A DNA stretch of 64,000 bases from assembly GCA_002707155.1 (NCBI GenBank), contig PAME01000001.1, forward strand, positions 666,029 through 730,028, read 5' to 3'. Positions 5,469-38,460 of the stretch are shown here, piece by piece; within the stretch, counting starts at the first letter, position 1; every line of letters begins with the position of its first letter. This DNA comes from Crocinitomicaceae bacterium (GTDB taxonomy: Bacteria; Bacteroidota; Bacteroidia; Flavobacteriales_G; Salibacteraceae). The notes beneath the pieces are model-generated. The model was not told where the DNA came from, did not search any database, and worked only from the letters and a program-made list of their open reading frames with translations. Position numbers and translations under genes: made by a program.

Positions 5469-6149
5469 ATGAAGGCTCTTGTTGCACTTTCTGGTAATGG
5501 AGTATACGACGGCTCCGAAATTCATGAATCAGTATTAACTCTGCTGCACCTCAATATGCAGGGCATTGAATACCAGTGCGTTGCTCCAAACATAAAACAG
5601 TACCATGTCATAAATCACACAAATGGTGAGGAGATGAAGGAATCGCGTAACGTCTTGGTAGAAGCGGCCAGAATTGCGCGCGGAGATATAAAAGATTTAA
5701 GTGAAGTTTCCATAGCAGACTATGATGCTTTAATCCTTCCAGGCGGTTTTGGTGCTGCTAAAAATTTTACAACTTGGGCTTTTGATGGCCCAAAAGGAAG
5801 CGTTTTGAAGGAAATCAAAACCATTATTCTTGAGACAGTGAAATTGAAAAAGCCAATTTTAGCTATGTGTATGGCTCCCGTAGTAATTGCAAAGTCGCTA
5901 GAGGGAAGCACGATTTCTGCTAAGCTTACCGTTGGAAGCGATAAAGAAGCCACACCATACGAAATTGAAGCAATTAGTGCTGGAATGGAATCAATTGGAG
6001 CTAGGGCAGAAAAAGTATCGGTACGCGAACTTACTGTTGATACAGAACATAAGATTATTACCACACCTTGTTACATGATGGAGGCATCTATAAGTGAAAT
6101 TAGTGAAGGTATTGCTAAAGCTGTATCTGCTCTTAAATTAATGTTGTAG
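5469..6149 (+). CDS. elbB: ElbB-type DJ-1/PfpI family protein
   Basis: A 226-residue cytosolic protein of the DJ-1/PfpI superfamily. It opens with VALSGNGVYDGSEIHE, the ElbB signature. ALILPGGFGAAKNF lies in the middle, and the nucleophile elbow AMCMAPVVIA carries the reactive Cys, near residue 137. ElbB proteins are annotated as isoprenoid-biosynthesis glyoxalases; E. coli ElbB has weak glyoxalase activity, and its physiological role is not settled. Length matches the family (about 217). It starts 9 bases after moxR and ends 1 base before the next gene, so it is probably in the same transcript. Confidence 0.92.
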   Translation: MKALVALSGNGVYDGSEIHESVLTLLHLNMQGIEYQCVAPNIKQYHVINHTNGEEMKESRNVLVEAARIARGDIKDLSEVSIADYDALILPGGFGAAKNFTTWAFDGPKGSVLKEIKTIILETVKLKKPILAMCMAPVVIAKSLEGSTISAKLTVGSDKEATPYEIEAISAGMESIGARAEKVSVRELTVDTEHKIITTPCYMMEASISEISEGIAKAVSALKLML

Positions 6150-6150
6150 C

Positions 6151-6801
6151 TTGGAAAAACGCTTTTTTACTACTCCAAGAACAGCTCGATTTTACTTACT
6201 TGGAAATACGCTAAACCCAACTAAAATATGGGTGGCAATTCATGGATACGGGCAGCAGGGAAAATATTTTTCAAAAAAAGTTGAAGCATTGCTGGATGAG
6301 GAAACCTTGGTCGTTATTCCCGAAGCGCTAAATAGATATTACCTCAAAGGGTTTAATGGTAGAGTTGGAGCTACTTGGATGACTTCAGACGATAGGCAAG
6401 CAGATATTCAAGATAATACGAATTACCTCGAAGAACTCATCACATCTATTCATACGCAATATCCGTCAATAAATGAACTCAATGTGTTCGCTTTTTCGCA
6501 GGGTATAGCTACCGCTTGCAGATGGTACGCTGAGTCAAGGTTTTCCGCCAAGAAGTTGGTTTTTTGGGCAGGCTCATTGGCAAACGATCTAAACTTTAAT
6601 CAGTATAAGAATAAGTTTAACTCAAGCGAAATAGCCTACGTATTTGGTAATAGTGACGAGTTTTTTGAAGCATCAAAAATTTTAATGAACGAGAGTTTAT
6701 TTTTGAATGCGAATATTGATTATCAATTGGTTACCTTTGAAGGCAAGCACGTAATAGATTCCAAATTATTAAAGGAATTGGCACATGATAAGAGAAAGTA
6801 A
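6151..6801 (+). CDS. Small alpha/beta hydrolase (phospholipase/carboxylesterase-like)
   Basis: A 216-residue soluble protein without signal peptide. WVAIHGYGQQGKYF (about 26-39) is the oxyanion-loop strand of alpha/beta hydrolases. FAFSQGIA (about 115) is the nucleophile elbow, with Ala in place of the first Gly of GxSxG. A late GKHVID supplies the catalytic His. This arrangement resembles the short carboxylesterase/lysophospholipase family. The substrate is unknown. The start is TTG, 1 base after the elbB stop; the end overlaps the transporter start by 17 bases. No ATG upstream gives a better N-terminus. Confidence 0.7.
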   Translation: MEKRFFTTPRTARFYLLGNTLNPTKIWVAIHGYGQQGKYFSKKVEALLDEETLVVIPEALNRYYLKGFNGRVGATWMTSDDRQADIQDNTNYLEELITSIHTQYPSINELNVFAFSQGIATACRWYAESRFSAKKLVFWAGSLANDLNFNQYKNKFNSSEIAYVFGNSDEFFEASKILMNESLFLNANIDYQLVTFEGKHVIDSKLLKELAHDKRK

Positions 6802-8821: not shown

Positions 8822-10810
8822 TTATTTTGAAATCACAAGGGCTTTATTTAAAGTCTGTGCTCCCACTTTTATTGCCAGATGGTAAACACCATTTTGAAGT
8901 CCAGAAACAACAATGTCCGAAGTGGTTTCAGCATTTATTTGCTGACTCAAGATTATTTTTCCAGAGATGTCCAACAAGTTGGCATAGGCCGTTTGGTCTT
9001 TTGAAATCACTAATTTTAAATGAACAACATCGCTTGCTGGATTAGGATACACCATAACATTATCTTTATTTAGATCTGTTATTCCAACCGTATTTTCATA
9101 CTTAAACTCAACAGCGGTATTAATTCCTGGGCTCAATAATTCGTAGCTGCCCGAATTCGTTGTGTCGTATTTTACTGCCCGAATTATATAAGAATAGCTG
9201 CCATCTGATCGGTTTGTAGAATCTACAAAGCTAAGTTCAGTAATAGGTGTCTTCGAAAGTTGAGTGGTAGTGCCTTGATAATCAAATACCCTGTAGACAT
9301 GGTAGCCGTCAACTTGACCAGGTGCAGCGTTCCAACTCAGTGTTATTTTGTTATCAGCACTTGTTCCAGATGCATTGGTTGGCGGCTGAATATAGTTCAG
9401 CTTCAATGTTGGGTCACCCATTAATGCCATGTGCGCGCCGTTATGACTGCTATTAAAATTTCCAGTGAAGTAGTCACCTCGATTATTCATAGATTCCTTT
9501 GCTCCAAAACCTATATTTTTTCCCAAAGCCATAGTATGGATATACCATTTTGGAATTCCTCCCCAAAAAGAAACTAATGCTGAATTAGCTAAAGGGGCTT
9601 TTAGCAAGTTGTTCCGTATATCCCAGTCTCCAAAATAACTTCCCGCTAATATGGTAAAAATACTTTGCAAAGAATCTGCTGCAAAGTCACTTGTTCTTCC
9701 TACACCACTGCATGAAGTGTAGCTCCCTGCGCCACAACCGTAACTCCATTGATAAGGAGCAGTCTTCATTTCTGTAAAATAGTCTTTACTCGTCACGCTG
9801 TCAGGGGTGTAAAAGGAGGTGAAATTGTTCCAGCCTGTTGATGAAAGATTTAAACTTCCAAAATTATCGTCAACCAACGCTCGTTTTATTGTTTGTGCTT
9901 TTCCCGTTCGGTAACTGTGGTTGCGATTCAAATAATCCCGCACCAGTTCGGTGTCACTTTTACTAAATGCCGGCATATCGAATAAATCTACTCTCCCTAA
10001 TTCATAATTTACATTCCCTGGCAAGCGAGATTGATCCAATTTTCCATCACCAACAATGTTGTAATTTCTACTTCTTGATCCTGTTGTATTATTTACTCTA
10101 GTATCTGTCCAATTGCCATCGAAACAAGCGTAATACGTATCGGCACTCCAGGCTCCTGTATGGCCTCCACTGCCAACAACGTGACCGTCGGGTGGTGGAA
10201 GATCTCCACCATAATCCCCAGAGTAAGGAACAGGAACATGGCCAATAATGAAAATAGTTTTTAATCGATTATCCAAGTTCTTGGCTTCAATATCAATGCT
10301 GGATTTCACATCTTGTACACTCATAGTGCGCGGAATGAATAGCGAAGTTACGTTCCAACCTTCGTTTAATAAATCTTCTTCCAATCTAGAAATCTCGCTG
10401 GACAATGCATTTTTATAGGCTTCATCAATTAACAATAAAGTATTTCCCATATAAAAATCGGCTTGTTTTTTTATCCCACTATAGGCGTAGCCATGAAAAC
10501 TCGAATTGCCACTGCCAGCTGTTACGTAATATTCGTAGCCTTCCCCAACTAGCACGTCGGAATCGGTGAAAGTAGTATCATTAACCATGTTTACTTTCAC
10601 AGGACTTCCCCATTGGGCAGTATCTAAATCATTTCGTTTATATATCCTGTAATTAGATACGGTAGAGATTTTAGCCCAAGAAAGGGTAACTGATTCAGGC
10701 GATTCGTTAATGGTTGCACTAATTTTAATGGTTTCTCGTTCTCCTTTTTTTTGTGCCGAAATACTGCCTAGGCAAAAAATGGTAAGGGTAATAATCAATA
10801 ATTTTCTCAT
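8822..10810 (-). CDS. T9SS-secreted protein with C25-peptidase-like fold, catalytic residues substituted
   Basis: A 662-residue secreted protein. The signal peptide is residues 1-20 (ends SISAQ). A fibronectin-III-like domain covers about 27-99. The core at about 122-472 follows the gingipain (peptidase C25) plan: IFIIGHVPVP, then ELGRVDL, then LMGDPTLKL (463-471). A second Fn3-like domain covers about 476-555. The C-terminal T9SS type A sorting domain begins at VMVYPNPASD (585-594). At the C25 His position, GHG is replaced by GCG (358-360). At the Cys position of the motif ACxTGDFD, Ser391 stands before YFGDWD. I therefore expect no gingipain-like proteolysis; a binding or structural role on the cell surface is possible. 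It starts 3 bases after the fdhD stop. The secretion route is firm; the fold assignment is by eye. Confidence 0.75.
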   Translation of the reverse strand: MRKLLIITLTIFCLGSISAQKKGERETIKISATINESPESVTLSWAKISTVSNYRIYKRNDLDTAQWGSPVKVNMVNDTTFTDSDVLVGEGYEYYVTAGSGNSSFHGYAYSGIKKQADFYMGNTLLLIDEAYKNALSSEISRLEEDLLNEGWNVTSLFIPRTMSVQDVKSSIDIEAKNLDNRLKTIFIIGHVPVPYSGDYGGDLPPPDGHVVGSGGHTGAWSADTYYACFDGNWTDTRVNNTTGSRSRNYNIVGDGKLDQSRLPGNVNYELGRVDLFDMPAFSKSDTELVRDYLNRNHSYRTGKAQTIKRALVDDNFGSLNLSSTGWNNFTSFYTPDSVTSKDYFTEMKTAPYQWSYGCGAGSYTSCSGVGRTSDFAADSLQSIFTILAGSYFGDWDIRNNLLKAPLANSALVSFWGGIPKWYIHTMALGKNIGFGAKESMNNRGDYFTGNFNSSHNGAHMALMGDPTLKLNYIQPPTNASGTSADNKITLSWNAAPGQVDGYHVYRVFDYQGTTTQLSKTPITELSFVDSTNRSDGSYSYIIRAVKYDTTNSGSYELLSPGINTAVEFKYENTVGITDLNKDNVMVYPNPASDVVHLKLVISKDQTAYANLLDISGKIILSQQINAETTSDIVVSGLQNGVYHLAIKVGAQTLNKALVISK

Positions 10811-14478: not shown

Positions 14479-15369
14479 TTACCTTCGTCCGCTAGCTTTA
14501 AACAAAATTTCCTTCTCGCTTTCGGTAAGTGAATCGTAACCCGACTTTCCAATTTTGTCTAATATGGTATCAATTAGTTGCTGTTGCTGTTCTTCTGACA
14601 TATTGCTTGATCCTGAGCTGGGAGGAGGAGTACTTTTTTCACTTTTAGCTTTTGAGGTATTATTCGATACAACGCGCATTTTCTTCTTCATAAAAGGATT
14701 GCGAAGCGCAAACAGAAAACTGTAGAATGGCACGGACCAATCTTTTCCTTGCTGTAAATTTCTCACAAAGAAAAAACCCAATGCAGCACCGCCAATGTGC
14801 GCGAGTTTACCGCCCATGTTTACCGAAAAATCCAATACAGAGGTTAGAATTAAAGCACCAATTGCAAGGTACTTTAGCGGAACAGGTCCGATGAGGAAAA
14901 GGCTAATTCGGTAATCAGGCAACAATGTGCCTGAAGCAGCAACAATAGCCATTACACCCGCTGATGCGCCCAAAAGTAAACCTCCCATTGGGAATGAACC
15001 AGACATTGCTAATAGGTTGAAACTTAAAGAATACAGCAGTCCACCCGCAATTCCACCTAAAAAATAAATAGCAGCAAACCGCCTAGGTCCCAGGTATTCG
15101 AGCAAAATCTTTCCAATCCAATACAACCAGAGCATATTGAATAAAATGTGCATTAGATTGGCGTGTAAAAACATATAGGTAATAATCGACCAGAAATGCA
15201 GTAGAAAAGAAGCAGCATCGCCAGGCAATGCAAACCAGTTTACGATAGGAATAAATCGGCCAAATAATTCCGTGATTAGAAAAACAACAACATTTACCAC
15301 AATGATTTTGGAGAGTGGATTGTCTCCCGTAATAATTCGTTTAAAGTCGTCGAGAATGAAGTTTGCCAT
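14479..15369 (-). CDS. Rhomboid family intramembrane serine protease
   Basis: A 296-residue membrane protein with about six hydrophobic helices. LLGASAGVMAIV contains the GxS nucleophile motif, AHIGGAALGF gives the catalytic His, and HANLMHILFNMLWLYW is the conserved HxxxHxxxN helix of rhomboids. The C-terminal tail is cytosolic and helical. Rhomboids cleave membrane proteins within the bilayer. The frame is open to 15405, but I start at ATG 15369, just 2 bases after the stop of the upstream rhomboid gene. This is the second of two adjacent rhomboids, probably cotranscribed with mutL. Confidence 0.9.
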   Translation of the reverse strand: MANFILDDFKRIITGDNPLSKIIVVNVVVFLITELFGRFIPIVNWFALPGDAASFLLHFWSIITYMFLHANLMHILFNMLWLYWIGKILLEYLGPRRFAAIYFLGGIAGGLLYSLSFNLLAMSGSFPMGGLLLGASAGVMAIVAASGTLLPDYRISLFLIGPVPLKYLAIGALILTSVLDFSVNMGGKLAHIGGAALGFFFVRNLQQGKDWSVPFYSFLFALRNPFMKKKMRVVSNNTSKAKSEKSTPPPSSGSSNMSEEQQQQLIDTILDKIGKSGYDSLTESEKEILFKASGRR

Positions 15370-15371
15370 TT

Positions 15372-16124
15372 CTAAAAATATTTTCTTTTGGCATTTCTCT
15401 GCCAATATTTAATGAGCAAAAAGCCAAACAACATTCCGCCCAAATGCGCAAAATGCGCCACATTGTCACCGGGTCGTTGCTGAATTCCATTTATAAGTTC
15501 CAATGCTCCATAACCAGCCACAAAATATTTTGCTTTAATTGGTATAGGAATAAATATCATGTACAATGCGGTATTTGGATACAACATACCAAAGGCCAGT
15601 AAAACACCAAATAAACTTCCCGAAGCTCCAACAAGTCCCGTATTGTAAAGCGCGTTTAAGTTACCCATATTAGGATCGATATAATTGCGGCCAGTAACAA
15701 TTAAATCTGCTCCTCCTTGCTTTACGTAGGCTATGGCTTCTGGGGTCATTAGGCCCTCTAAATGCACTATTTCGAAGTACACTATGCCGTAGTGTAATAA
15801 AGAGGCTCCGATTCCTGTGATTAAGTAATAAATCAAAAATCGCTTCTGCCCCCAAGCATTTTCAATTTGACTGCCAAACATCCAAACTGCAAACATGTTG
15901 AAGAAAAGGTGGGAAATACCACCGTGCATAAACATGTAAGTGATTAATTGGTAGGGCGCAAAGAGTTCCGATTCAAAATAGTGTAAGCCTAAGGTATTTG
16001 AAAGATCAATGTTTAGTGAAACATTAAATGAAAGTGTTGCTAAAAACATTAACCCATTGATAATGAGTAAGTTTTTTACAACCGGAGGTAACATTGAAAA
16101 CCCTTGACCACCTAGCCCTTGCAT
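15372..16124 (-). CDS. Rhomboid family intramembrane serine protease
   Basis: A 250-residue rhomboid with about six membrane helices. MHGGISHLFFNMFAVWMFG is the HxxxHxxxN helix, VGASGSLFGVLLAF has the nucleophile Ser in GASGS, and FAHLGGMLFGF the partner His. The first ATG overlaps the mutL stop codon (TAATG), so translation is probably coupled. The paralogue downstream has a longer tail; the two may form a pair with different substrates, which the sequence cannot tell. Confidence 0.92.
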   Translation of the reverse strand: MQGLGGQGFSMLPPVVKNLLIINGLMFLATLSFNVSLNIDLSNTLGLHYFESELFAPYQLITYMFMHGGISHLFFNMFAVWMFGSQIENAWGQKRFLIYYLITGIGASLLHYGIVYFEIVHLEGLMTPEAIAYVKQGGADLIVTGRNYIDPNMGNLNALYNTGLVGASGSLFGVLLAFGMLYPNTALYMIFIPIPIKAKYFVAGYGALELINGIQQRPGDNVAHFAHLGGMLFGFLLIKYWQRNAKRKYF

Positions 16125-17995
16125 TATTCGAAAGAGCTTAAGAGTTGTTCAATACTGTGATTCACGATGATTTTTTTTCCAGCAGGATTGTAATTGGGGT
16201 TTTCGCAGGCAAATAACTCATCAATCAACATTTGCATTTCGAGTTTATCCATTTTTCTACCGGGTTTCACCGCACTTTTTTGTGCCAATGAATAGGCTAG
16301 GTTTACGCGTCCATCTAATTTTAATTCCGTGTCATTCAGTTTGTAATTCCCAATTATTCCGTCAATTACATCCAGGGCATTGCCGTTTTTTATTTCGCTA
16401 GGCATACCTCTAACAATGAAAGCATTTTTTCCAAAAACATCAATATCAAAACCCATGCATCTTAATTGAGGTAACAACTCTTTTAACAAATCTGAGTCAT
16501 TAGGGTTTAAATCTATATTCTCGGGAAAGATGAGTTGTTGCGCAATGCCGATGCCTTGAGCCAATTGGCCTAAGTATCGCTCAAACAGAACGCGCTCGTG
16601 CGCACGCTGCTGGTCAATAAGCATCATTCCGGTTTTTATTTGAATGATGATAAAACGATTGTGCAATTGAATGATTTTGTCTTCTGCAGCTGAATTTGAG
16701 TCCGTTTCACTCGAACTTACCAAATTGGCACCTTGCTCAAATTCATTTTCCATAGATTCGAAATCCACGCTAGATTGCAGTTCAGAGTCTGTATTTTGTA
16801 ATAGACTTTCCCAATGATCTACTGGAGTTGAATAAGCTGGGTTTACCGCACTGTAATCCATTTTACGGCTAATTCCACTGGCATTTTTACGCGCATTGAA
16901 TGGATTGTAATCTGGATCCACAGAAATTCCGGGAATGGAAACATCTTTATTTTTTTTAAGCTGGTCAAAGGAGGTTTCGCGATTAAAATCGAGGGAAGGA
17001 GTTATGTTGTGTTCGCCGAGTGCTTTTTTTACCGAAGAGCGAATGATGGCGTAAACCGATTTTTCATCCTTGAATTTTATTTCCGTTTTAGTCGGATGAA
17101 TATTTATGTCCATTGAGCTAGGATCCAAATCCATTTTTAAAAAATAGGAGGGATGGTAACCTTTTGGAATAAGCTCTTCAAATGCTTGCTGAACTGCATG
17201 ATGCAGGTAGTGGTTTTTTATAAATCGATTGTTTGCAAAAAAGTACTGCTCTCCCCGAGTTTTTCTAGCAAATTCAGGTTTGCAAATAAACCCTTTGATA
17301 GATACAATGTCTGTGGTTTCTTGAACTGGAACCAACCTATCGTTAAAATTTTTTCCGAAAACGGCAACTAAACGCTGTCTGAATGTTCCTTGTTCTAAAT
17401 GGAAAAGCTCATCACCATCTTGGTAAAATTGAAATTTTACGTCGGGATAAACCAAGGCAATACGTTCAAATTGATCGATAATGTGCCTGCCTTCCACCGC
17501 GTTTTTCTTCAGAAACTTTCGTCTTGCAGGAATATTAAAAAACAAATTTTTAATCGAAATAGAAGTTCCATTGGGACTGCTGCAAGGTTCTTGTTTGGTG
17601 ACTTTACTCGCCGAAACTTTTATCAAATTTGCCAGTTCGTCATCACTTCGTTTAGATTTTATTTCAGCTTCGGAAACCGCTACAATACTCGCAAGCGCCT
17701 CGCCTCTAAAACCCATCGTAGTAATGTAAAACAGGTCTTCTGCATTTTTAATTTTTGATGTTGCATGTCTTTCTACACTCATTCGAATATCGGTAGGAGA
17801 CATTCCTTTTCCGTTGTCTATAACCTGTATAAGTGCTTTACCGGCGTCTTCGACAATTAATTTCACTTCAGTTGCCCCAGCATCAATGCTATTTTCCAGC
17901 AATTCTTTGACGACAGATGCCGGACGTTGAACGACTTCACCAGCGGCAATTTGATTGGCCACATTGTCGGGCAATAAATTAATAACGTTTTCCAT
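16124..17995 (-). CDS. mutL: DNA mismatch repair protein MutL
   Basis: A 623-residue GHKL ATPase of mismatch repair. N-terminal motifs are complete: AAGEVVQRPASVVKELLENSIDAG with the catalytic Glu, DNGKGM, and GFRGEALASI. The C-terminal dimerisation domain begins near 435. In it, the endonuclease motif DQHA(x2)E(x4)E reads DQQRAHERVLFE (461-472), keeping both Glu but losing His and Ala. The late Cys-His-Gly-Arg-Pro motif is replaced by CENPNYNPAGKK (597-608). MutL links MutS recognition to strand incision. Start and stop overlap neighbours by 1 base each (TAATG on both sides). Confidence 0.96.
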   Translation of the reverse strand: MENVINLLPDNVANQIAAGEVVQRPASVVKELLENSIDAGATEVKLIVEDAGKALIQVIDNGKGMSPTDIRMSVERHATSKIKNAEDLFYITTMGFRGEALASIVAVSEAEIKSKRSDDELANLIKVSASKVTKQEPCSSPNGTSISIKNLFFNIPARRKFLKKNAVEGRHIIDQFERIALVYPDVKFQFYQDGDELFHLEQGTFRQRLVAVFGKNFNDRLVPVQETTDIVSIKGFICKPEFARKTRGEQYFFANNRFIKNHYLHHAVQQAFEELIPKGYHPSYFLKMDLDPSSMDINIHPTKTEIKFKDEKSVYAIIRSSVKKALGEHNITPSLDFNRETSFDQLKKNKDVSIPGISVDPDYNPFNARKNASGISRKMDYSAVNPAYSTPVDHWESLLQNTDSELQSSVDFESMENEFEQGANLVSSSETDSNSAAEDKIIQLHNRFIIIQIKTGMMLIDQQRAHERVLFERYLGQLAQGIGIAQQLIFPENIDLNPNDSDLLKELLPQLRCMGFDIDVFGKNAFIVRGMPSEIKNGNALDVIDGIIGNYKLNDTELKLDGRVNLAYSLAQKSAVKPGRKMDKLEMQMLIDELFACENPNYNPAGKKIIVNHSIEQLLSSFE

Positions 17996-32651: not shown

Positions 32652-32927
32652 ATGGGTAAAGGAGATAAAAAATCGGGTAAAGGAAAAAGAACTATTGGGT
32701 CTTATGGCAATACGCGTAAAAGAAGAAGAGATATAACTACCGAGGCAGAAAGAAAGAACTTAGCAAAAAAGGAAGCAGCTGATAAAAAAGCAAAAACTGC
32801 AGCTAAAAAAGCGGCTGAAAAGCCAGCTGAAGCTGAAGAGGTAAAAAAGCCAGAAGCTAAGAAAGCGCCAGCTAAGAAGCCAGCGGCTAAAAAAACCGCG
32901 GCTAAAAAAACTGCTGCTAAAAAGTAA
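32652..32927 (+). CDS. 30S ribosomal protein THX with a long Lys/Ala-rich tail
   Basis: A 91-residue basic protein. Residues 1-25 (MGKGDKKSGKGKRTIGSYGN...) match the THX peptide of the small ribosomal subunit, which in Thermus is only 26 residues long. The rest is a Lys/Ala/Glu tail ending in three AAKK-type repeats (TAAKK), similar to histone H1-like bacterial proteins. The tail is a low-complexity extension that may bind rRNA or DNA. The gene has its own promoter and terminator and follows HU. Confidence 0.85.
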   Translation: MGKGDKKSGKGKRTIGSYGNTRKRRRDITTEAERKNLAKKEAADKKAKTAAKKAAEKPAEAEEVKKPEAKKAPAKKPAAKKTAAKKTAAKK

Positions 32928-33894: not shown

Positions 33895-34845
33895 ATGCTG
33901 AACCTATCAATTGTAATACCTGCTTTTAACGAAGAGGAGTCGCTTCCAGAGCTTTGCGCGTGGATAGATAAAGTGCTCAATGAGCACAAGCTTACTTATG
34001 AAGTTATCTTAATTGATGACGGTAGCTCAGATACTACTTGGAAGGTTTATCAAGACTTAGCTTCAAAAAATGCGAATCTAAAAGGAATTCGTTTTAACCG
34101 CAACTACGGTAAAAGTGCAGCCTTAAATCGTGGATTTGAAAAAGCCATTGGCGATGTGGTGGTTACTATGGACGCCGATTTACAAGATAGCCCTGAAGAA
34201 TTACCAGAGCTGTATAAAATGATTGTAGAAGGTGGTTTTGATTTGGTGAGCGGCTGGAAAAAGAAACGCTACGATCCACTTTCTAAAACCATACCTACCA
34301 AACTCTACAATTGGGCTACTCGAAAGATGACGGGCATTTATTTGCACGACTTTAACTGTGGTTTAAAGGCCTACAAAAATGAAGTCGTAAAAGCCGTTGA
34401 AGTCTATGGCGAAATGCATCGCTACATTCCAATTTTGGCAAAGAGAGCAGGTTATGCTGTTATTGGGGAAAAAGTTGTGCTCCACCAGTCACGCAAATAT
34501 GGAACCACCAAATTTGGTTTAGAGCGCTTTATTAATGGTCCTTTGGATTTGCTGAGCATTACTTTTGTGTCTAAGTTTGGGCAGAGGCCAATGCATTTAT
34601 TTGGCTCTTTTGGTATGCTAATGTTCATATTTGGATTCATGACTGCCTTATTCCTTGGTTTGGAAAAACTCTATCATTTGAGTCAGGGAGTTCTTCCTGG
34701 ATTGGTAACAGATAATCCTTGGTTCTATATTTCTTTGGTTTCTATGATATTAGGTACGCAATTATTCCTAGCTGGCTTCTTAGGTGAATTGGTTTCAAGA
34801 AACAACCCTGTGCGCAACGAATACAAGATTAGAGAGGAGATTTAG
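33895..34845 (+). CDS. Family 2 glycosyltransferase, dolichol/polyprenyl-phosphate hexosyltransferase type
   Basis: A 316-residue enzyme. The GT-A domain (1-220) starts LSIVIPAFNEEESLPEL and has LIDDGSSDTTW, TMDADLQDSPEEL (the DxD region) and the DPM-like DFNCGLKAY. Two C-terminal membrane helices follow (about 235-258 and 278-303). The DPM1/GtrB type transfers glucose, mannose or another sugar from a nucleotide donor to undecaprenyl phosphate at the cytoplasmic face. It follows DUF4199 without a gap and precedes the decayed T9SS gene. Confidence 0.9.
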   Translation: MLNLSIVIPAFNEEESLPELCAWIDKVLNEHKLTYEVILIDDGSSDTTWKVYQDLASKNANLKGIRFNRNYGKSAALNRGFEKAIGDVVVTMDADLQDSPEELPELYKMIVEGGFDLVSGWKKKRYDPLSKTIPTKLYNWATRKMTGIYLHDFNCGLKAYKNEVVKAVEVYGEMHRYIPILAKRAGYAVIGEKVVLHQSRKYGTTKFGLERFINGPLDLLSITFVSKFGQRPMHLFGSFGMLMFIFGFMTALFLGLEKLYHLSQGVLPGLVTDNPWFYISLVSMILGTQLFLAGFLGELVSRNNPVRNEYKIREEI

Positions 34846-34932: not shown

Positions 34933-37900
34933 ATGCGCCAACTGATTTTTCTTCTTTTTTTGTTTTTTACAGTTACGGGGTCTGCCCAATATGAATCCAA
35001 CTGGTGGTATTTTGGAGATTCACTTTCTATAGATTTAAAAAGGGTAAAGCAGCTCCTTCAATGCAAACTAGTGCAGCTTTCACAAATTACAATACTGCTT
35101 CTTCGGCATGTATTAGCGATAAAAATGGTAAATTTTTATTCGCAGTTGACAGTGGGTTTATTCGTAATTCCAATTTCCAAATTATGGCCAATAGCCTTGG
35201 AATATTGAATAAGCAAGTAGGTCTCTCTTTTCATTTTATTAATTCATCCAATATCATAAAAAAACCTGAAAATAACGAAGAGTATTATATTTTTCATCAG
35301 GATTCATGTTCTAAAAACGTATTTCCAGGATCCAATGCAATTCGCAACGTTTATTACAGCATTGTAGATATGTCATTAAATGGGGGGCTAGGAGCAGTTA
35401 CGATTAAGAATAGAATTTTATTTCAGTCGAATGCATTTAAGGTAGATGCTACGTATCACAGCAACGACAAAGACATTTGGATGGTTTTTCAAAAGACTGG
35501 GAGGTATGTGGGTAGTGGAGTCCAAAGATCTAATCGTATAGTTGCTTTTTTAGTAACATCCGCAGGTATACAATCAACAATTCATAGCTCTCTAAATAAT
35601 TTTATTGATGAAAGTCCAGGCGAAATTAAAGTTTCGCCTAAAGGTGATGTAATTGCAATTTCTGAAGGCTATGAATATCAGGGCTTTGTTAGTGGTCGTT
35701 ACCAAAGTCAACATTATTTTCTATTGGCAAGATTTGATAATAAAACAGGCAAGTGTTACTCGGATCTTAAGATTGAATCTAGACCTCTAAGGTACTTTCA
35801 AAATAATGGTAGAATTGGTGGTGGTAATTTATGTCTTTCTCCAGATGGTAAAATGCTGTATTATGGGGTGTTTGACGCAACACAGCCCCAAACAAGAAAA
35901 TCACTTAATACTCATCACTTAACGCAATTAGATATATCTGTATACCATAAAGATAGTATTGAGGCTAAAAAGCACCAATTTAAAAGTCCCGATTCCTCAC
36001 GCATATGGAGATACAATGGCAATATACATTACGGAAAAATAGGTGCTTCAGATATTCAATTGGGTTTAGACGGAAAAATCTATTGGAAGACTAGTGAAAA
36101 ATCGATAGGTAGAATTAACCGACCTAATATTGCTAGGGCAGGAAGTAATTTTACCGATTCCGTTTTCGTTTTTCCACACGATACCTTTCATTTTTTTGAA
36201 AGTTTTCCCAATTTTTTTAGCGGTTATTTTAAGTTTTCTAATATTCACGTAGAAAATAAATGTTTCTCAGATTCAACCCGCTTTTCTTTGCTAGACACTG
36301 GTAGTGTCGCAAATGTAATTTGGGATTTTGGAGATGCTTCACCACTTAAATCTGCAAATCCAACCGATACCGTTAAACATTCCTACCAGCGTACTGGAGT
36401 GTTCACAGCAAAAGGCTATTTAACCCACTACAGAGGTACAAGAGATACCGTTACCGAGGTCATTACAATTGATACTATTCAAATTCCAGTATTGAGCGAT
36501 TCTACCTACACTCTATGCAATGGTGATACACTGAGTTTGTGGAATACAAGGGCTGCTAAACATTTTTTCTGGAACGATTCTACGTTCAACAATACCTTAC
36601 AAGTGCGTAACTCAGGAACATATTGGTATACGAGTTACAATCACTGTGGAGAATGGTACGATAGTTTGGTGGTAGATTCAGCGGTAGTTCCAAAAGTCAA
36701 TTTAGGTCGAGATACAGTTTTTTGTGCGGATAGCTTACGGTTGAACGCTTTTTTGGAAAAACTCAACTTACTTGTGGCAAGATCAATCGAGAGACTCCAC
36801 TTTTACAGTTTCAAAAACGGGTTTGTATAAAGTCACCGTAACCAATAAATGTGGAGTAGACTGCGATAAAATTAATATAACGGTTCAGGATACAATATTT
36901 CCAGATTTGGGTAAAGACACCGCAACGTGTATTGGAGACAGATTGGTATTTATACTCAACTACAGCGGAGTAAGCTATAAATGGTTTAACGGATGGTCTT
37001 CAAACACCAACTTAGTTACTCAACCCGGAAAATATTGGGTAGAAGTGTCTAATCGCTGTGGAACACAAAGTGATACAATAGTTGTTGATACCCTTCGCCC
37101 AGCCCAAGTAAATCTAGGAAACGACACTGCCACCTGCGCCCATTTGCCTCTAATCCTAAATGCTGGAGCAAACGACAAAAATCTGATTTGGCGTTGGCTG
37201 CATAACGGCAGTACAGACAGCAGTGTAGTGGTAAATGCCAGCGGAACCTACACCGTAGAAGTTACCGATAGATGCGGCATACAGACACATTCCATAAAAG
37301 TATACCAGCTCAACGCCCCCAATTTACAGATGAACGATACTACTATTTGCAAGGGCGATTCGATACAAATAACCGCCCGAGCAGATTCCGCCCAAATACG
37401 TTGGAGTACCGGCGCAACCGATCCAAGCATTTCCATAAAAGATTACGGCACTTATGGAGTAGGAGCACAAAACCGCTGTGGTTCAGATACCGTATTATTT
37501 AAGGTAGGCGAACTACCGCCACCAAAATTTACCCTAGCTGCTGATACGATATTGTGTAATCAAACCATTTGGGAGCCAGACGCTTCTCAACCCCGATCTA
37601 GTTACCAATGGAACGACGGATCTACCCAGCCTAAAAACCGCATAGAAAAAGAAGGCACTTACGCAGTAACGATAACCAACCCATGTGGTACAAACAGCGG
37701 AAGCATAAACGTGGCTTATTAGAACACCCCAAAAGCCTCAGCCACCATAAACTTAAAAGGAAAATATTGCCCCGGAACATTGCTCACATTGAGCGGCAAC
37801 TCTACAAATGAAAACGATAAATATTTATGGAGTACAGGCGATAGCAGTCAAAGTATCAGTTTAAAAGTAGCAGGAGTTTACACGTTAATCGTAAGTAACT

Positions 37901-38460
37901 TTTGTGGAGCAGACACCCTAAACATTACTCCAAATTACTACCCTATCCAAGCTGCATTTGCCTTGAATGAGAAAGAAGGAATTTCTCCGTTTGAAGTAGC
38001 CGCAATCAATTTATCAGAAGGAGCAGTGGAATATCTATGGTGGATCGATTCCGATAAGAAAAGAACTACTACAAACCTGAGGGAAAGAGTTATCGGCTAT
38101 GGTGAACACACGATAATGTTGATTGCCAAAAACCCATTTGGTTGTGCAGACACATTACGAGATACCATAGAAGTATTGAGAAACCCGAACATTCCACCCT
38201 TGCTGTGCGATTTTAGAATAGACCCAAATCCAGCCAGCGACTACTTTGTTATCTCGGCATCAAACAACGACAAACAAGTAAAGCAGGTAAAAATCTTTAA
38301 CGAAATAGGGCAAGCGATAATAACAAGCGACGTGAGCCATTGGAAAGAAAATCCATTTAACCTCGAATACCGATTAAACGATTTACCTTCAGGCACCTAT
38401 CTAGTAGGTTTATACTGCGAGGATGAAACCCAATACAAACGTTTAGTGATTGTACGTTAG
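34933..38460 (+). pseudogene. T9SS-sorted PKD/repeat surface protein, disrupted by two frameshifts and a stop
   Basis: Three frames join into one coherent protein of about 1170 residues. It starts at ATG 34933 with a signal peptide ending TGSAQ. The frame breaks at 35034-35043 (one base missing) and returns at 36749-36754, where a T6 run has one base too many. TAG at 37720-37722 then interrupts the restored frame. Content in order: a WD/beta-propeller-like region containing LCLSPDGKMLYYG; a PKD domain (VIWDFGD); seven units of about 70 residues with a Cys near the start, a GTYxVxVxNxCG end and a D/L-rich middle; a second PKD-like domain; and a T9SS type A sorting domain (IDPNPASDYF). Frame conservation between lesions points to recent decay or to sequencing error. 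It abuts a minus-strand glycosyltransferase gene. Confidence 0.8.

Follow-up and report, generated by a model that had tools for sequence, protein, structure and literature searches.

Cargo of the T9SS requires a Sec signal together with a C-terminal domain (PMC12618676). T9SS type A cargo with PKD and Ig-like repeats (TIGR04183/PF18962) combines a signal peptide, a PKD domain, a repeat array and a sorting domain, and the gene described here has the same parts. At least two long intact relatives of this kind lie side by side on contig C24 of the same genome (G000). In contrast to such cargo, the present G000 copy is broken in three places and has no full-length product. A second comparison is offered by frameshifted bacterial pseudogenes (Antonov et al. 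2013, PMC3711429), which resemble the gene in their recent indels and in a nonsense codon within an otherwise conserved frame. As in the pseudogene clusters of that study, neither the site nor the direction of the shift is conserved among relatives; the parallel decay and absence in congeners goes beyond those cases as added detail only. A third comparison is with decaying adhesin and autotransporter genes, for example in Campylobacter. In the available part of that account (PMC7168839), a large surface protein is present, broken or missing according to lineage, as here; the G000 gene differs from the case as presented there in its secretion system and phylum, and its tracts are too short for switching.

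The gene lies in a window of 64,000 nucleotides, the whole stretch of DNA analysed (contig C7, positions 666029-730028), of a 3.04 Mb genome in 26 contigs. We conclude that it is quite probably a pseudogene of recent origin, derived from a gene for a large repeat protein secreted by the T9SS (a putative surface or adhesin-like cargo), and that its condition most likely reflects an ordinary loss of the gene, as opposed to a genetic on/off switch.

A reading frame broken in three places

Reading of all frames across positions 34933-38460 (forward strand) joined three of them into one 1,176-residue protein, along a path from frame 1 (34933-35040) to frame 0 (35040-36752) and back to frame 1 (36754-38460). 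The features are listed below, together with the alignments to congeneric genomes (G001, G002) on which several of them rest.

33895-34845, forward: upstream flank and synteny marker, a DPM1-like member of glycosyltransferase family 2 (named from sequence), intact
34933-35040, forward: segment 1, a Sec-type signal peptide followed by the first residues of the mature protein, aligning in frame with the G002 orthologue
35034-35042, forward: lesion 1, loss of 1 bp in a T/A/G run (A5), from the frames and the G002 alignment
35040-36752, forward: segment 2, N-terminal domain, PKD domain, repeat unit 1 and the start of unit 2, from the G002 alignment and the PKD profile
35041-35208, forward: out-of-frame tail translated past lesion 1, from frame reading
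36749-36754, forward: lesion 2, gain of 1 bp in a T6 run, from the frames and the G002 alignment
36754-37719, forward: segment 3, remainder of repeat unit 2 and units 3-6, from the G002 alignment and CG landmarks
37720-37722, forward: lesion 3, TAG where G002 and G001 have CTA (Leu), from the congener alignment
37723-38460, forward: segment 4, repeat unit 7, a weak PKD-like stretch, the T9SS type A domain and the natural stop, from PF18962/TIGR04183
38464-39465, reverse: downstream flank, a family 2 glycosyltransferase gene (named from sequence) that is intact and convergent to the broken gene

From the ATG at 34933, frame 1 encodes an N-terminal Sec-type signal peptide, judged by eye (MRQLIFLLFLFFTVTGSAQ), and then WWYFGDSLSIDLK. 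Sense is kept on entering frame 0 at 35040 (KGKAAPSMQTS...) and on the return to frame 1 at 36754, within the T6 run (WKNSTYLWQDQS...), as far as the natural stop at 38458-38460. Profile searches placed a PKD domain (PF00801, 24.8 bits against a cut-off of 23.5) and a C-terminal T9SS type A sorting domain (TIGR04183, 39.8 bits against 23; PF18962, 40.3 bits against 27), the latter at residues 168-243 of segment 4. There are exactly seven repeat units, 68-73 residues apart, with CG landmarks at residues 572, 640, 709, 781, 849, 918 and 991. A preliminary description had read a signal peptide, a PKD domain, seven units of about 70 residues and a T9SS domain over three joined frames; frame reading and profiles bear this out, and its coordinates and lesions were correct. 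Tandem Repeats Finder detected no DNA-level repeat in the gene because the units have diverged. Scans for sigma-70 promoters and terminators gave scores no better than shuffles. Pfam matches in segment 3 such as ToxB_N and TPD1_C, in which no stretch passes alone, were rejected as repeat-bias artefacts.

Signal peptide and T9SS tail do not share one translatable frame, being separated by two frameshifts and the TAG. Past lesion 1 the shifted frame meets a TAA at 35206-35208, which limits the product to 91 residues, and another 1.5 kb or so separates this end from the second shift. The two shifts had been described as compensating. Their arithmetic does cancel, but since the shifted frame has already terminated the second is no suppressor; opposite signs are expected about half the time for two random single-base shifts. 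The sole expected product would be a 91-residue stub that has a signal peptide but lacks a T9SS tail.

Could the remaining pieces, for instance segment 2 (571 codons) or the C-terminal segment, still be made and used separately as smaller proteins? Segments 2 and 3 are long, open and retain codon structure, although a recent loss would account for this as well. Segment 2 has no signal peptide of its own in its frame, and segments 3-4, which carry the T9SS tail, have none either. Therefore these pieces could not reach the T9SS and would not be exported even if translated. Moreover, a split gene of this arrangement was found in no congener (G001, G002, G003). We regard separate use as extremely improbable.

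Open, truncated and missing copies in congeners

A scan for related loci with the broken protein as query returned no relative, and the flanking glycosyltransferase was used instead to locate syntenic loci. G002, of the same genus (record CAJVZZ010000021.1, uncultured Flavobacteriales bacterium ERR599121_bin.89), comes from a sample run which we take to be an ocean metagenome, and it is on this basis that the source genome is called marine. Its orthologue sits behind the same glycosyltransferase (89% amino acid identity) and is open across all three lesion sites, up to the contig end that cuts the copy. One frame reads WWYFGDSLSIDFKKGKVAP over site 1, LLNAAWKSSTYLWQDQS over site 2 and VKYLNTP over site 3, so that the disrupted G000 frame is matched by an open orthologue, as expected of a pseudogene. 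Between the two, amino acid identity rises from 64% in segment 2 to 73% in segment 3. An extra gene of 193 residues precedes the open copy. Contig C37 of G002 holds the last 23 codons followed by a 61-bp duplicate of the glycosyltransferase end. On this contig (L154, 110-170 and 230-366), the duplicated 3′ end and two direct repeat copies of 58 bp sit between the end of the T9SS gene and the next gene.

In G001 a C-terminal relic with about 88% amino acid identity to G000 starts within about 25 bases of the glycosyltransferase. Around 2.5 kb has been lost, comprising the N-terminal two thirds including the start, and a 2-bp insertion breaks the rest. This genome (6 contigs, 83% completeness) looks like an indel-prone long-read assembly. 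The 2-bp insertion may be an error because other G001 genes show frameshifts: 2 of 11 are frame-split in G001 and open in both G000 and G002 (L152, G001:C1:26001-46000, 14480-17246). The 2.5-kb deletion is harder to explain as an assembly error. In G003 the two flanking glycosyltransferase genes adjoin directly, without a gene between them. Across the four genomes of the genus that were compared, the gene is open (G002), broken (G000), truncated (G001) and absent (G003). In G014, which is more distantly related, an open homologue of 1,164 residues lies at a different genomic place.

Timing of the probable loss

Several dS values approach saturation, which makes the dN/dS ratios rough; with that limit, comparison with G002 (971 codons) gave a ratio of 0.17, and comparison with the C-terminal part retained in the G001 relic (344 codons) one of 0.13. 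For reference, the ratio was 0.05-0.10 for the two intact T9SS homologues with an end-to-end alignment and 0.03-0.18 for neighbouring genes. The values of 0.13-0.17 for the broken gene indicate that constraint probably held through most of the divergence and that the gene probably died recently.

The comparison with G001 had a second aspect. The dS between G000 and the relic is 0.49, against approximately 1.0-1.4 for the flanking genes, and G001 and G002 are sisters (about 93% nucleotide identity); therefore an exchange of alleles between lineages is suggested. The spot between the glycosyltransferases might be an exchange hot spot, where variable surface-protein alleles would recombine between species and broken copies would donate repeats or tails. 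The low C-terminal dS, the glycosyltransferase duplicate downstream in G002 and a solitary tail beside a probable tRNA gene hint at such a process, which we judge to be quite unlikely. The solitary T9SS tail lies in G002 (L153, G002:C9:25000-38000, 5908-6353) in a frame of 103 residues, has about 81% amino acid identity to the tail studied here and directly follows a stretch whose translation resembles a tRNA gene (GELAQLARASDWQSEGRRFDSC).

Switching, recoding and sequencing error as explanations

A phase-variable adhesin gene, turned off at homopolymer tracts and able to switch back on, would suit a surface-type protein whose two indels lie in or beside homopolymers. However, the tracts are A5 and T6, and A and T runs within the gene reach 7 at most. 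Such tracts are common: the 754 kb of the genome that were sampled contain 1,955 A5 runs and 849 T6 runs, with a longest run of 9, whereas the switch of a contingency gene contains a simple repeat that is long or hypermutable. Nor would one switch restore the full product. At least two sites would have to flip jointly, and the TAG is no tract change. Moreover, G002 has no matching tract at either shift site and has neither shift, and the large G001 deletion is irreversible. Phase variation at the homopolymers, as put forward in the preliminary description, is therefore unsupported, since the tracts are short and common and a single switch cannot restore the protein; we consider it very improbable.

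Programmed recoding would begin with a -1 slip at the in-frame U UUA AAA (35034-35040) and continue with a second shift at the T run. Lesion 1 indeed overlaps the in-frame TTTAAAA heptamer at 35034-35040, whose form, phase and direction all fit -1 slippage. However, an in-frame TTTAAAA occurs in 104 of 393 long genes of this genome. In a folding test that covered structures free of pseudoknots, the 81 nt downstream did not outperform shuffled sequences (z +0.99), so that the stimulatory structure of a programmed -1 frameshift was not detected there. Frame transitions have been grouped as recoding by conserved position, direction and site motifs (Antonov et al., PMC3711429); G002 lacks the heptamer and needs no shift, and the slippery site is accordingly not conserved. 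Recoding would also demand a second shift of opposite sign and read-through of the TAG, and the chance that it operates here is close to nil.

The main rival to the pseudogene reading is error in sequencing or assembly. The true gene would then be intact, and the three lesions would have come from faulty base calling or polishing where the sequence is locally poor. Each shift changes a single base in a short A/T run, and the assembly has one other 1-bp frameshift. A tblastn survey of G000 stretches (754 kb) against G002 stretches (approximately 580 kb) gave the background: among 170 other orthologues (198 kb) that are open in G002, G000 has 1 frame-split and no internal stops. The sole other frameshift is in a thioredoxin-like gene at G000:C24 ~78901-80120 (L163 ~8901-10120), which has lost 1 bp at ~78970 and is intact in G002. 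At this rate, a 3.5-kb stretch would carry at least two indels with a Poisson probability of 1.6e-4, rising to 3.4e-3 if the upper 95% rate is taken. This clustering statistic is weakened by the gene having been selected for looking broken and is indicative only. Moreover, genes remain open despite 849 T6 runs and 326 longer T runs in 754 kb; therefore such runs are not generally miscalled.

The third lesion also speaks against error. None of the three bases of the in-frame TAG at 37720 matches the CTA codon of both congeners, and the TAG is therefore not one recent point change from CTA; it could have arisen by several substitutions or by a closely spaced loss and gain. Sequencing error, which had been offered as a possible cause, is unlikely on this background, though possible locally.

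Some points count against the pseudogene reading. With the other 1-bp frameshift on contig C24, the indel error rate is maybe nonzero, and the reported contamination of the G000 assembly is 6.58%. Of the three options that had been left open (newly dead, phase-variable or sequencing error), the switch fails, error is unlikely and recent death of a gene fits, at a locus that varies between lineages. The first option, 'newly dead', has the best support because a congener has an open copy, both comparisons show purifying selection, the gene is decaying or absent in two other congeners and the rest of the assembly is nearly free of such lesions.

Under the pseudogene reading, the lesions would be present in the real chromosome, the first would have killed the gene and the others would have accrued later without selection. 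GldM (TIGR03517), the one T9SS component searched, scored above cut-off in G000, consistent with a T9SS encoded by the host. The genome carries about 132 T9SS type A tails, and one cargo gene is therefore plausibly dispensable. The event would be a recent loss of one of roughly 130 dispensable cargo genes, at an insertion site that is a turnover spot within the genus. The locus offers a clean, small example of such a loss in a marine Flavobacteriales genus.

Other variable genes in the window

Another lineage-variable gene of the window, at 8822-10810 (reverse strand), encodes 662 residues, and only 62 of them have a match at the corresponding syntenic position of G002. A small gene for a lysine/alanine-rich basic protein at 32652-32927 (forward strand) contains a 15-bp tandem repeat; the N-terminal 37 residues of its product are kept in congeners and the remainder is variable.
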